Assembly (NCBI RefSeq): GCF_013185065.1
Contig: NZ_JAAVTO010000011.1
Coordinates: forward strand, 1-57,556
Length of the DNA stretch: 57,556 nucleotides
DNA from: Adlercreutzia sp. ZJ473
GTDB taxonomy: Bacteria > Actinomycetota > Coriobacteriia > Coriobacteriales > Eggerthellaceae
Reading direction: 5' to 3'
Part shown: positions 53,236 through 57,007 of the stretch, in pieces
How positions within the stretch are numbered: position 1 is the first letter of the stretch
Layout of the letters: every line of letters starts with the position of its first letter
Notes under the pieces: generated by a model
Databases searched by the model: none
Told to the model about the DNA's origin: nothing
Seen by the model: only the letters and a program-made list of their open reading frames with translations
Translations under genes and position numbers: made by a program

Positions 53236-53313
53236 AGGCCTTTCCGAAAATCGTGTTGGCGATAGGCCTAAAACAGGCCTTTCCGAAAATCGTGTTGCCG
53301 ATAGGCCTAAAAC
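53236..53313. repeat. Two tandem 39-bp repeats
   Basis: 53236-53274 and 53275-53313 differ at one base. Each unit begins AGGCCTTTCCGAAAATCGTG and contains AGGCCT at both ends (about 28 bases apart), giving palindromic sites. They lie just outside the ISL3-like end and could be protein-binding iterons or slippage duplications. Confidence 0.85.
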
Positions 53314-53528
53314 ATTAACTTGATCAGGTGATTTACATGAGAGCTAATGCGGCAACACCAGATCCAGAAGAAAAAGTGATAGGTTTTTGGCCGTACTGTC
53401 AGATGCCCTCTAAGCTGAGGGTTAAAAAACAAGCTATGAGATGCAGCTTTACAACTAAAAAGACAACATCATGTGACCTTAAGCTCAGGCGGGCTTCTAG
53501 GTACAGGCAGGTGTGCCATGTCCTGCCC

Positions 53529-54233
53529 CTAGCGCTTCTTCTTTCGTTTGGAAGGCTTGGAGGCAAAGGCGGCGGCTTGGGCTTTCTTTCTCCTTGTGTA
53601 GGCAGTGGCACCCTCAACGGCATCCGGTGCCCCGAAGGCCAGAAGCAGCCGTCTTCTGGTCTCCTCGAAGGTGCCGAACCCGCGGCTCTTGCGCTTGAGC
53701 TCTTTGATCTTGTCGTTAGTCGATTCTGCGCGTGCGGTGTTGACATGGCTTGTCGTGGCGGTCACCAGGTACTGCTTGTATCTCGATACGGTCTTGCCAA
53801 AGCGTCGCATCTCGGGAACCTCGAGCCCGCACGCCTTGCCGATCCAGCTGTCGAGAGCCTTCTCGCATTCCTGTCCGTCTGTCCAGTGATGGTCCTGCCA
53901 TATGTAGTAGGGCTGAAGTGTCAGGTAAGCCTGCCGCAGGTGAGAGTGCTTGGAGTCGCAGATGGCGAGCATGCCGCATATCGTCTTCTTCTCTGCCTCA
54001 ATCCACGGTGCGTCTTTGAACTCGCGTCTTCTCTTGCCGCGGTTGGCCGCGAGCTTTCGGTGACGTCTTTTGATGTCGGCCCCGTTGCTCGCGCCCTTCT
54101 GCAGGCGGCGTCGGGCATCATCCATGCAGGAAACGCCCGTCTTTGCGACATGGAACCGGTCAACTCCCATGCATGCGAGCTGGCACCACTTCTTCGCTGC
54201 GTTCAGGTAGACGTCGTACATGTCCGAGCGCAT
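53529..54233 (-). pseudogene. C-terminal half of an ISL3-family transposase (split by insertion)
   Basis: The 234-residue frame holds the DDE_Tnp_ISL3 second half: DMYDVYLNAAKKWCQLACMG then VDRFHVAKTGVSCMDDAR, and AESTNDKIKELKRKSRGFGT with FEETRRRLLLAFG near the C-terminus. The matching N-terminal half lies at 55861-56501, separated by the IS110-type element, so the original gene was one of about 440 codons. The MRSDM methionine is an internal residue, not a native start. Confidence 0.82.
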
Positions 54234-54262
54234 ATGTCCATCGGGATGTCAAGCGGCAATAT

Positions 54263-54301
54263 GAGCCTAACCCCTGATTTTCGCAGACAGGGGTTAGGCT
54301 C
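54263..54301. other. Perfect 14-bp hairpin inside the element's 3' non-coding region
   Basis: GAGCCTAACCCCTG (54263-54276) pairs with CAGGGGTTAGGCTC (54288-54301) around an 11-base loop. It sits 13 bases inside one terminal repeat. In IS110-type elements this region may encode a guide (bridge) RNA, of which this could be one stem, or it may insulate the element from outside transcription. Confidence 0.6.
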
Positions 54302-54584
54302 CGATCCGTTGGATTCAGCGCGATCAAGCGCATCCGTTCAGTGGCTATCTATCGATAGTTTCTCCCGGTCGCTCAAGCGATCCAGTCACATATTCGTGGA
54401 TACAGCACAAGGCTGCCCACATGTTGATCTCTTCGGCAGGGGCAGGGCCGCAGAGCCGCGGAAAGCGACAGATTCAGAAGTCGTACGTAGCAAAGGAGAG
54501 TACTTTGCCGTACATGCTCGGAACGCGGGTTGCCAAAACGCGTCAACGGCACTGAACCAGGGGCGGGATATGTCGATTCGAGAA

Positions 54585-55724
54585 CTAGGGAAGACCCAGT
54601 TCCCGGTCTACCTGACGTCCGATGACCCAGATCCACTTGATCATTTCGGAGGCTACGGCCACTTTCGCCGCATTGGGGCTTTTGCCCAGGTCGTCGACCA
54701 TATGCAGGTATCTCTCGAAAAGCCGCCTGTTGGCCTTTGCGGCGATGGCCTCTACTTCGCCGGAGACGGGCCTTCCCTTGAGAAGGTATTTCTTGTGGGG
54801 CTGGCGCAACCGCATGGGGGCGTTGCATTCGATAGGTGCCCGGCGAAGGCGGCCGTCTCCCTGCTTGGTGATGGGACCAGGGGACCTGCGGTTTCCGCTG
54901 GAAGACTCAGAGGGAGCAGTTCCAAGCCAAGAGGAAAGGCGCCTGGGCGACTTGAAGCGCCTGAAGTCGCCGATCTCCGCCACTGCGAGAAAAGCCGTCT
55001 GGACGTTGACGTCCTTGAGCCCGCGCAAGCCGTCGACATAGGGTTTGAAGCGGGGCGTGTCGGCCAGATCCGCGATCTTCTCCCTGAGCGCTCTGTTCTC
55101 CTGAATCCTCTGGTCGAGCAGCGTCAAGAGGCCGTCCAGGACTTGCTGGGAGACGGGATCGTCGAGGTCGATGGACTTTATCCAGGCCATGTGGTCTTTC
55201 CCCCAAGGGGCCTTCGGTCTTCCGCTTTCGGTGGTTTCTTGCCAAACGTGGCCGTATTTGAGCAGAAGGGCGCTGATGCGCAGCTTCGCCGCCTTGACTT
55301 CGTCGGTTGCGGTCACCCGAAGCCTCGCAAGGTCTCTTGCCCCTTCGATCTCTTCGCTGGGAACCCACACGCAGGAGTATTTCTTGACCGGATTGGTGAT
55401 TTCTCTTCGAATGGCGCAAGCGTCGATCTTGTCGCTTTTTCGACGCTTTTCGATGGAGGTTCTTGCCAGGGAAGATACGGCGATGATGTCGCAGTCGATG
55501 TCTTCGGCTCTGAGTTTTCTCGCCAGGTCAAAACCAGTGCATCCGGATTCATAGGCGCAATAGACAGGGCCGGGCAATTGGCTTGCCCATCGGATGAGGG
55601 CGCAATCCTTGTCGGGTCCTTTGAATACTTTGGAATACTCTTGGCCGTCGTTGATGTTTACGCCTTTGCAGGCCAAGGATTTGGCATGAACGTCGATTCC
55701 TACGTAGGTTGCATGCTGCTGCAT
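54585..55724 (-). CDS. IS110-family transposase
   Basis: ATG 55724 (MQQHATYVGI) follows AAGGAG. The 379-residue enzyme has the N-terminal DEDD nuclease domain: Asp in YVGIDVHAKS, Glu in YESGCTGFDL and Asp in KSDKIDACAI. A C-terminal transposase_20 domain follows, with GLRGLKDVNVQTAFLAVAEI and the serine-containing SSGNRRSPGPITKQGDGRLR. These combine RuvC-like and serine chemistry for seamless insertion. It is full length and apparently intact, so the element may be active. Confidence 0.92.
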   Translation of the reverse strand: MQQHATYVGIDVHAKSLACKGVNINDGQEYSKVFKGPDKDCALIRWASQLPGPVYCAYESGCTGFDLARKLRAEDIDCDIIAVSSLARTSIEKRRKSDKIDACAIRREITNPVKKYSCVWVPSEEIEGARDLARLRVTATDEVKAAKLRISALLLKYGHVWQETTESGRPKAPWGKDHMAWIKSIDLDDPVSQQVLDGLLTLLDQRIQENRALREKIADLADTPRFKPYVDGLRGLKDVNVQTAFLAVAEIGDFRRFKSPRRLSSWLGTAPSESSSGNRRSPGPITKQGDGRLRRAPIECNAPMRLRQPHKKYLLKGRPVSGEVEAIAAKANRRLFERYLHMVDDLGKSPNAAKVAVASEMIKWIWVIGRQVDRELGLP

Positions 55725-55860
55725 AGAGAGGCTCCTTCCAGGCATCGTGTGATTGTCAAATCACGGGAATTGAGACACCTAGATGCTAATCCAGCTTTCG
55801 GGCTGGATAAACCGTTTCTTCAGGTCGGAGCCTCTTTGCGCAACATCCCGATGGACATAT

Positions 55861-56501
55861 CATCAGAAAAACGAGACGCATCTGCGCTCATCTGCTCCGA
55901 ACTGCTTGAACCACTGATCCATATCATCTGCGTCTCTGCCCTCTATGACATCTATCAGATATCCGGTAGCACCGTCATAAGCACAGGCCCAAAACACGCA
56001 GACCTGCTTTCCCGTGTCGGATTCCCGGTAGCTCATGGCATGTATCTCGTCTGTGAGCAGTATGCAGGGAAGTGCTGGCTTTTTGATATGCACGCTGTTT
56101 ATGACGAGGCGCACCGTGTCGTGCGAGACGTTGCAGGCGTGAGCCACCTCGGTTATGGTCTGCCTTCTCCTCAAAAGATCGATGACGTGTTCCTCGAGCG
56201 CATCGGTGATGGTAGGGCTTACGACAGAAGCGAAGGGGACATCCGCACTTTGGGTAGTCCCGCATCTTTTACACCTGAGTCTTTTGACTTTGACGGTCAA
56301 GGTGCAGGGAGTCTCACCTACGACGTGCGCCATGCGCTTGGCGTAGCTGCCATGCCCTGTCATGGTGCGCCCGCACCCAGGGCATGCAAGATCGGGGGCA
56401 TCGATAGTGACGTGGAGGTCGGTAAAGCCGGCGCTGGCTCCCGCCTTATCGACGCGGACGCTGTTTGGCAGGCCAACATCTGCTGGGCGTATCCTGCTCA
56501 T
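55861..56501 (-). pseudogene. N-terminal half of the split ISL3-family transposase
   Basis: Starting at ATG 56501 (MSRIRPADVG), the frame has the ISL3 zinc ribbon (CPGCGRTMTGHGSYAKRMAH, then RLRCKRCGTTQSADVPF). A helix-turn-helix (RRRQTITEVAHACNVSHDTV) and the first DDE segment (LTDEIHAMSYRESDTGKQVC, DVIEGRDADDMDQWFKQFGA) follow. It is cut after DERRCVSFF by the IS110-type insertion; the rest lies at 53529-54233. Confidence 0.82.
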
Positions 56502-56635
56502 GAGGCCGTCACCCAGCCCTCGAATCCCAAGATGGCAAGCCTGCACCACCCGGGGCAGTCTTCAATTGCACCGTCATTAAAGGCGCATCCGCGTGAGAAG
56601 CACTTTTCTGAGAGTGCCTCAACACACAGCACGTC

Positions 56636-56803
56636 TCATGCGCTGTGCTCGTCTTGTTCGATTCTTTTCAGCGCGGCGAGCTCGACTTCGTGTGCGGCGA
56701 GAACACTGCCGTCGGGCTTTTCGCGCTCATTTGCGTATGTGCCGGGCAAAAGACCCTGCGTATACGCAAGCCTTCTTTTCCTGTTGGCCTCTCTGCTGTT
56801 CAT
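56636..56803 (-). CDS. Possible small protein upstream of the ISL3 transposase
   Basis: A 55-residue frame begins at ATG 56803 with GGAG upstream. It reads MNSREANRKRRLAYTQGLLP, then NEREKPDGSVLAAHEVELAA. It is charged and not recognised. It could be a passenger or chance frame within the ISL3 element. Confidence 0.25.
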   Translation of the reverse strand: MNSREANRKRRLAYTQGLLPGTYANEREKPDGSVLAAHEVELAALKRIEQDEHSA

Positions 56804-56841
56804 GGAGTCGCTCCAATCCTCCGATGACGCAGATGCCGCAA

Positions 56842-56885
56842 GGAGGATGCGAGGTGTTGCCGGCACCTCGCATCCTCCGCTTTTT
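56842..56885 (+). terminator. Strong rho-independent terminator-like hairpin
   Basis: GGAGGATGCGAGGTG (56842-56856) pairs perfectly with CACCTCGCATCCTCC (56864-56878), followed by GC and TTTTT (56881-56885). In the plus direction this is a classic terminator. It faces transcription coming from outside into the ISL3 element and may protect the transposase gene. Confidence 0.55.
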
Positions 56886-57007
56886 CGCTTCCGATACGCT
56901 CTTGGATCCGCGCTATCGGAAATCGCTGTCAATAGACTTGCTCGGAAGCTCGAGACAAGCATGAAAGTGGTCGCATGAAATCGCAATACCCCAGGTCAGG
57001 GCAGGTG

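Follow-up and report, generated by a model that had tools for sequence, protein, structure and literature searches.

We propose that an IS110-family insertion sequence of the IS1111 type in Adlercreutzia sp. ZJ473 encodes a bridge RNA (seekRNA) in the non-coding region downstream of its transposase gene, and that this RNA would guide the element to its target in the manner outlined below. We estimate the probability of this reading at about 94 %. Such an RNA had been suggested by an earlier sequence-only reading of the window, by which we mean the whole stretch of 57,556 nucleotides that was analysed, and it is now supported by a structure conserved among relatives and by loops that match both target and donor.

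The element occupies positions 54231-55863 of the minus strand (1633 bp), with its left end at 55863 and its right end at 54231, as defined by empty ISL3 sites (L047, L048 and L050) and by the ends of relatives. No second copy was found in the draft genome, which comprises 119 contigs. The transposase frame (54585-55745, minus strand) has 386 codons from the listed start, or 379 aa if translation starts at 55724, and includes the stretches VGIDVHA, YESGCTG, KSDKIDA and GTAPSESSSG. With a DEDD transposase and a Transposase_20 C-terminal domain, the element belongs to the IS110 family in the broad sense: PF01548 scores 29.1 bits (cut-off 29), PF02371 52.8 bits (cut-off 21.3) and NCBIfam NF033542 160 bits (cut-off 140). 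The subterminal inverted repeats are indeed perfect over 18 bp (18/18), as first read, and lie at 55843-55860 on the left and 54232-54249 on the right. The 335 non-coding bases noted earlier are likewise confirmed, running from 54584, next to the end of the transposase frame at 54585, to the inner repeat edge at 54250. Counted to the right end at 54231 the 3' region measures 354 nt, while the 5' non-coding region measures 118-139 nt depending on the start codon.

The proposed target, an ISL3 transposase gene, is split by the element into a 5' part (55863-56549, minus strand), whose frame closes at the junction, and a 3' part (53529-54233, minus strand). Pfam matches identify both: one part has PF01610, the other PF13542 and PF14690, each scoring under its gathering threshold. 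The uninterrupted sequence at the place of insertion, ..CTTCTTCTG CTCGGACATG.., is present in two intact ISL3 copies of the window genome and in one of a congener, and the copies in the window genome give TTCTG^CTCGG as the empty site. After insertion, the left junction is ..GTTTTTCTG-ATG-ATATGTCC.. and the right junction ..GGACATAT-G-CG-CTCGGACATG... Comparison of these junctions with the empty ISL3 copies yields the end plan, which consists of left target, a 2-nt core (TG), a 3-nt extension, inverted repeat and element on the left, and of inverted repeat, a 1-nt extension, core and right target on the right. Compared with the empty sites, the left target and core (..TTTTTCTG) fall at 55864-55875 and the core (CG) with the right target CTCGGACATG at 54219-54230, both on the minus strand of the ISL3 gene. 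The stretches in which guide matches had been anticipated, 54225-54235 and 55861-55870, overlap those found at 54230-54219 on the right and from 55864 upwards on the left.

Further observations concern this region. At 54229-54230 the right-end core is CG where TG stands in the left end, in the donor guide and in the three right ends of close copies known from Adlercreutzia sp. ZJ304 (G013); the CG may stem from mutation or from an imperfect exchange. A 1216-codon open frame (53328-56978, plus strand) runs antisense across both ISL3 parts and the whole element; it has no Pfam match and is probably a by-product of coding on the opposite strand. Past the 3' end of the ISL3 gene, at 53237-53310, there are two near-identical tandem stretches, GGCCTTTCCGAAAATCGTGTTG[GC]CGATAGGCCTAAAACA.

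Transposase matches at E <= 1e-20 were found in 34 of 138 family genomes, the window's included. The same end plan, with both ends and both flanks set by one rule, is seen in 35 of 44 processed loci (again including the window's). Their repeats lie at or near (A)TATG, a feature that is partly a product of selection since the rule itself called for TATG on the left. The 3' region of these 35 elements is 300-402 nt long, and the transposases of the other elements have 355-384 aa, plus one partial match of 315. No close relatives were found on viral contigs. One genome holds three copies (L055, L056 and L057), all at CGCTCAG^GATGAC and with matching guides. Related elements in two genomes of another family (L110-L114 and L120) are inserted at CTAG^AGTC sites and have the guide loops AUUCGACU and AUGCGACU.

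Aligned 3' regions display a conserved backbone interspersed with variable patches. We built a covariance model, R1, from the window and nine relatives. It places the core of the RNA, target loop followed by donor loop, at 54366-54540 on the minus strand with 165.3 bits, a score that holds by construction as the window is one of the ten sequences of the model. The consensus fold has a stem at its base, then a hairpin-capped internal loop and a second loop with its own hairpin. In the window the apical hairpin between the two target guides (helix 3) lies at 54482-54514 and the donor-loop hairpin (helix 5) at 54396-54420, both on the minus strand. Conservation among relatives, on which the earlier suggestion had been staked, is borne out: over the ten sequences, 93.9 % of cells in the 27 pairs are paired, compared to 24-44 % with the partner slid, and 13 of the pairs show double changes. 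For this alignment the covariation score is 0.416, and shuffled alignments give 0.201 +/- 0.021; the count of further pair types, 20 where shuffles have 24.1, is the sole measure that does not exceed the shuffles. Among 29 rows fitted to the model, 94.7 % of cells are paired and 22 of 27 pairs show double changes.

Searched over 61 sources, R1 gives 36 matches at E <= 1, of which ten are the building sequences and 26 are in loci outside the model. Every match lies on the strand of a transposase and downstream of it; there is a single one in the window. Of the ISL3 and left-end loci included in the search (L042-L044, L047, L048 and L050), none has an R1 match, nor have L071 and L073-L075. At E <= 1 it misses five of the 35 elements, all with full 3' regions (L020, L026, L029, L030 and L060), and it gives L025 and L027 values of only 0.2 and 0.55. 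Rfam has no match in the window at gathering score and none in 53300-56600 up to an E value of 5. In the wider class, 28 of 296 genomes contain an RNA-model match at E <= 1e-4. Twenty class loci were fetched, and a TATG-type repeat pair surrounds the match in 15 and is absent in 5. Against shuffled sequences, the whole 3' region of the window has the better fold in 99 of 100 cases (z -2.97). Taken by itself, the 175-nt guide core has no such advantage (z -0.43), and 65 of 200 shuffled versions equal or surpass it; we therefore rejected its folding energy as evidence, and the case rests on covariation and on guide-target matches.

The right target guide UCCGAGCA (54515-54522, minus strand) makes up the 5' side of the first loop and would pair with TGCTCGGA, the core and right target of the empty ISL3 site; opposite this guide the filled site reads CGCTCGGA on the right. 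The left target guide CUUCUG (54475-54480, minus strand), on the 3' side of the same loop, has the same sense as the left target and matches it over 6 nt in intact ISL3 copies and over 5 nt in the window's own flank. The second loop matches the ends of the element. Its 3' side carries the left donor guide AUAUGUG (54387-54393, minus strand), which matches the right end of relatives, ATATG-TG in the G013 copies; the window itself has ATATG-CG. AUCA (54425-54428, minus strand), which pairs with TGAT of the left end, is a candidate right donor guide with weak statistics. The complementarity of the loops to target and donor that had been predicted is thus found.

To measure how far guides follow targets, we compared each element's own target with targets swapped between elements. 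When the loops are read off the structural alignment (24 of its 29 rows, reduced to 20 representatives; L002, L003, L005, L010 and L023 are without a paired target), the right guide scores 120 on own targets against 63.3 +/- 5.5 swapped and the left guide 97 against 63.6 +/- 3.8. The two guides sum to 217 against 127.0 +/- 7.6 with a maximum of 160, a score reached by none of 20,000 swaps, and the own target is strictly best in 15 of 20. The pairs L015/L054 and L063/L064, each one group at 80 % protein identity elsewhere, have differing guides and were counted separately here. The loop columns span whole loop strands and were fixed after a print that also showed the targets. The right-guide match is 4 nt or shorter in 5 of 24 rows (L009, L052, L064, L063 and L021), the left-guide match is 3 nt or shorter in 4 of 24 (L051, L063, L019 and L058), and some counted left-guide matches do not touch the core.

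An unpositioned search of the whole 3' region, covering 35 of 44 loci in 24 groups (the ends of L007, L009 and L051 set by hand), gives 273 for own targets against 170.3 +/- 18.8, with a maximum of 234 and none of 20,000 swaps reaching 273; the own target is strictly best in just 5 of 24. As controls, the reverse guide order gives 234 against 168.9 (reached by 0 of 20,000 swaps), and the opposite strand gives 177 (reached by 7,053 of 20,000) and 223 against 174.8 (22 of 20,000). Single matches lift the controls too, and the expected arrangement is still the highest. A later set comprised seven lineages from the 20 class loci, five of which (L107, L108, L115, L116 and L119) are without such ends, the rest being copies. 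Own sums of 69-73 compare with means of 43.9-46.0. One lineage has several targets, and the own sum is attained by 1 to 3 of 5,040 permutations, the count varying with the choice among its five copies. This lineage was first represented by L111, a good match, and the test was repeated with each of the five; leaving the lineage out gives 1 of 720 permutations. A first positional swap test, on 23 representatives drawn from 32 of the 44 loci, scored 205 where swaps gave at most 146; it was set aside because its windows had been picked after inspecting the matches.

The donor-loop test covers 18 representatives; for L055 the right end was placed manually. In 14 of the 18, the second loop has on its 3' side the last four bases of the own right end, core included (TGTG, TGAG, TAAG, TGAA or TTAA), against 6.8 +/- 1.8 when swapped, a result reached by 3 of 20,000 swaps. 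On the 5' side, agreement with the left end is seen in 8 of 18 (4.0 +/- 1.5 when swapped; 243 of 20,000 swaps reach this). The window is one of the four right-end misses, as its donor guide predicts TG and its core reads CG.

One could argue that such matches arise by chance from searching with short words. Individual matches are short (4-9 nt), the first positional windows were chosen after inspection and the loop columns were set with the targets already visible. Against this stand the 20,000 swaps, none of which comes near the own score with structural loops or reaches the expected arrangement in the unpositioned search, as well as the few permutations that do so in the later set, and we find chance hardly credible as an explanation. 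We also consider it very improbable that the conserved 3' region works purely at the DNA level or as the 3' end of an mRNA, serving end recognition or termination, with the protein picking the site. The region does hold a strong conserved hairpin and a conserved -35-like box, and the core RNA alone folds no better than shuffles, all of which would fit such a role. On the other hand, the loops change with their own target and the stems are kept by paired changes. The closest comparison is with G013. The guide CCGAGCA of the window faces the target TGCTCGG, whereas both G013 right ends that reach the guide (L002 and L003) have CAGAGCA and the G013 ISL3 target is TGCTCTG (L003 and L037). The 3' regions of the window and L003 are 93 % identical, and their guides differ as their ISL3 sites do.

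The hairpin in question, near the right end (54263-54301, minus strand), has the perfect 14-bp stem described in the sequence-only reading (arms 54263-54276 and 54288-54301). The idea that it is itself the guide RNA was rejected: the guide loops lie upstream (about 54540-54366) and the hairpin is a separate conserved structure 3' of them, kept with changed arms in relatives between the RNA and a TTGACA box. That it is a terminator is a guess. The TTGACA, a -35-like box at 54248-54253 (minus strand) in the right end, could form a promoter with the left end at a circle junction. Joining the window's ends gives TTGACA, a 17-nt spacer and GATGAT, the latter with 4 of 6 bases of TATAAT. In 33 of 35 elements TTGAC[AG] precedes the end of the right-end core by 24-26 nt, and likeness to a -10 box is weak, at 1 to 4 of 6 bases over the set. 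The arrangement in the window fits the circle-junction promoter proposed for the IS1111 group by Siddiquee et al. 2024 (PMC11187229).

Modelled on published accounts of IS1111 and IS621, the mechanism that we envisage starts with an excised circle whose joined ends, predicted to read ...GGACATATG-TG-ATGATATGTCC..., would create the promoter from TTGACA of the right end and GATGAT of the left end. The RNA would be transcribed from it together with the transposase, processed, and folded into a target loop and a donor loop. The 5' strand of the target loop, UCCGAGCA, would pair with the top strand to the right of the cut and the 3' strand, CUUCUG, with the bottom strand to its left, both over the TG core; the donor loop would read the joined element ends in the same arrangement. 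We infer that the transposase binds this RNA and catalyses recombination between circle and target, with strands exchanged at the core, and that the window copy may be active. Such an event would have put the element into the ISL3 transposase gene, beside its SDM codons.

In its repeats, the 3' position of its RNA and its guide order the element agrees with the IS1111 group. The repeats, perfect over 18 bp and following the same plan in relatives, compare with subterminal repeats of 7-17 bp given for IS1111 by Durrant et al. 2024 (PMC11208160). A long non-coding region lies downstream of the transposase gene, and the segment matching the top strand is 5' of the one matching the bottom strand in the guide RNA, the order that PMC11187229 describes for IS1111, reversed within the loop relative to IS110. 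For the motif GL-P----S(t)G the window reads GTAPSESSSG, a G--P----SG form; among the 35 elements, 21 have GL-P, 8 another G--P form and 6 no match to the pattern. The transposase, at 379 aa, is longer than the 330-350 aa stated in PMC11187229, a range we regard as the usual IS1111 spread rather than as defining. Among the tblastn matches listed it is nearer to ISSso6 (30.8 %, E 1e-35) and ISEc45 (31.2 %, E 2e-34), the nearest named transposases, known by the RefSeq labels of plasmid matches, than to IS5708 (6e-11). ISEc45 (L071) has TATGACC-type 10-bp repeats, a short left end and a 250-nt 3' region and, unlike the window, gives no R1 match.

The element resembles the IS1111 seekRNA elements ISEc11, ISPa11 and ISKpn4, as portrayed in PMC11187229, in its subterminal repeats, long 3' non-coding region, guide order and proposed circle-junction promoter. 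It differs from them in its target, an ISL3 transposase gene, and in that its RNA is predicted from sequence. With the bridge RNA of IS621, as described in PMC11208160, it shares target and donor internal loops whose left and right guides take in the core dinucleotide; here the guides covary with target and donor, the right donor guide being weak. In contrast, IS110-group elements such as IS621 have the RNA in the left end and no long repeats. In the literature searched, no paper names both IS1111 and Eggerthella, and one, PMC11934113, contains IS110, ISL3 and bridge RNA together. Because the group, the position of the RNA and the guide order are already published (PMC11187229 and PMC11208160), we claim no new kind of system; what is new is a further IS1111-type guide-RNA element.

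How specific the guide is for ISL3 is a separate question. G013 has three left and three right ends of close copies, all at contig edges and 93-94 % identical to the window element. Two copies are at the same ISL3 site as in the window (right target CTCTGACATG). The third (L002/L044) is inside a gene that we take to belong to the EcsC-like family, at AAAACTG^TTGCTCTG, where the right-guide match TGCTCTG is 3 nt out of register with the position used; tolerance of a bulge is possible. A relative of the gene, L077, aligns through the insertion site without a gap there (a 7-residue gap lies just before), so the extra TTG probably belongs to the EcsC-like gene, and a 3-nt footprint of the insertion is unsupported.

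It is therefore conceivable that element and RNA are real and the ISL3 landing incidental, the guide reading a short word found elsewhere and insertions into ISL3 being well tolerated. We see this as a serious possibility, if short of an even chance. One of the three G013 copies lies outside ISL3, and the guide-length word TTCTGCTCKGA occurs 14 times in four genomes, six of them in the window's genome, with 3 of the 14 at intact ISL3 copies. Since the guide alone does not single out ISL3, we withdrew the idea that it is in effect ISL3-specific. Pointing the other way, three of the four known insertions of the subgroup formed by the window and G013 are at the same ISL3 position, and the longer word TTCTGCTCKGACATG occurs three times in the four genomes, always at an intact ISL3 copy. 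Longer pairing, or tolerance too, may be reflected in these three insertions, and a preference for ISL3 is not proven.

Among the 11 relatives with ATATGAG(C/T)AG repeats, five (L020, L021, L029, L058 and L060) have a right flank made up of an A-run and then a hairpin (hairpin z -2.1 to -7.5 against mononucleotide shuffles), which corresponds to the U-tract of an intrinsic terminator read in the opposite direction. The other six (L018, L019, L025, L026, L027 and L030) have no such flank. The guide loop of L019/L058 is U-rich (UAUUUUUUU), and this subgroup may aim at terminators.

Tentatively, and with more doubt than belief, we hypothesize that the subgroup of the window is a specialised parasite of ISL3 whose guide changed with the ISL3 allele, within a wider RNA family that was repeatedly re-aimed. 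The bridge RNA would read codons of the ISL3 transposase that lie at, and immediately ahead of, its SDM motif, which presumably holds the catalytic Asp, with CCGAG for CTCGG in one host and CAGAG for CTCTG in the other, the prey being tracked by guide mutation. The wider family would be the one present in 28 of the 296 class genomes, with one subgroup re-aimed partly at intrinsic terminators.

With these elements, relatives of Adlercreutzia and their class contribute a coherent group of bridge RNAs for which the sequence reveals guides, targets and ends alike. The natural guide/target pairs, among them a single-base guide change matched by the target, are ready tests of the targeting rules of the less studied IS1111 type, and in the window they would represent one transposon interrupting another by means of an RNA guide.
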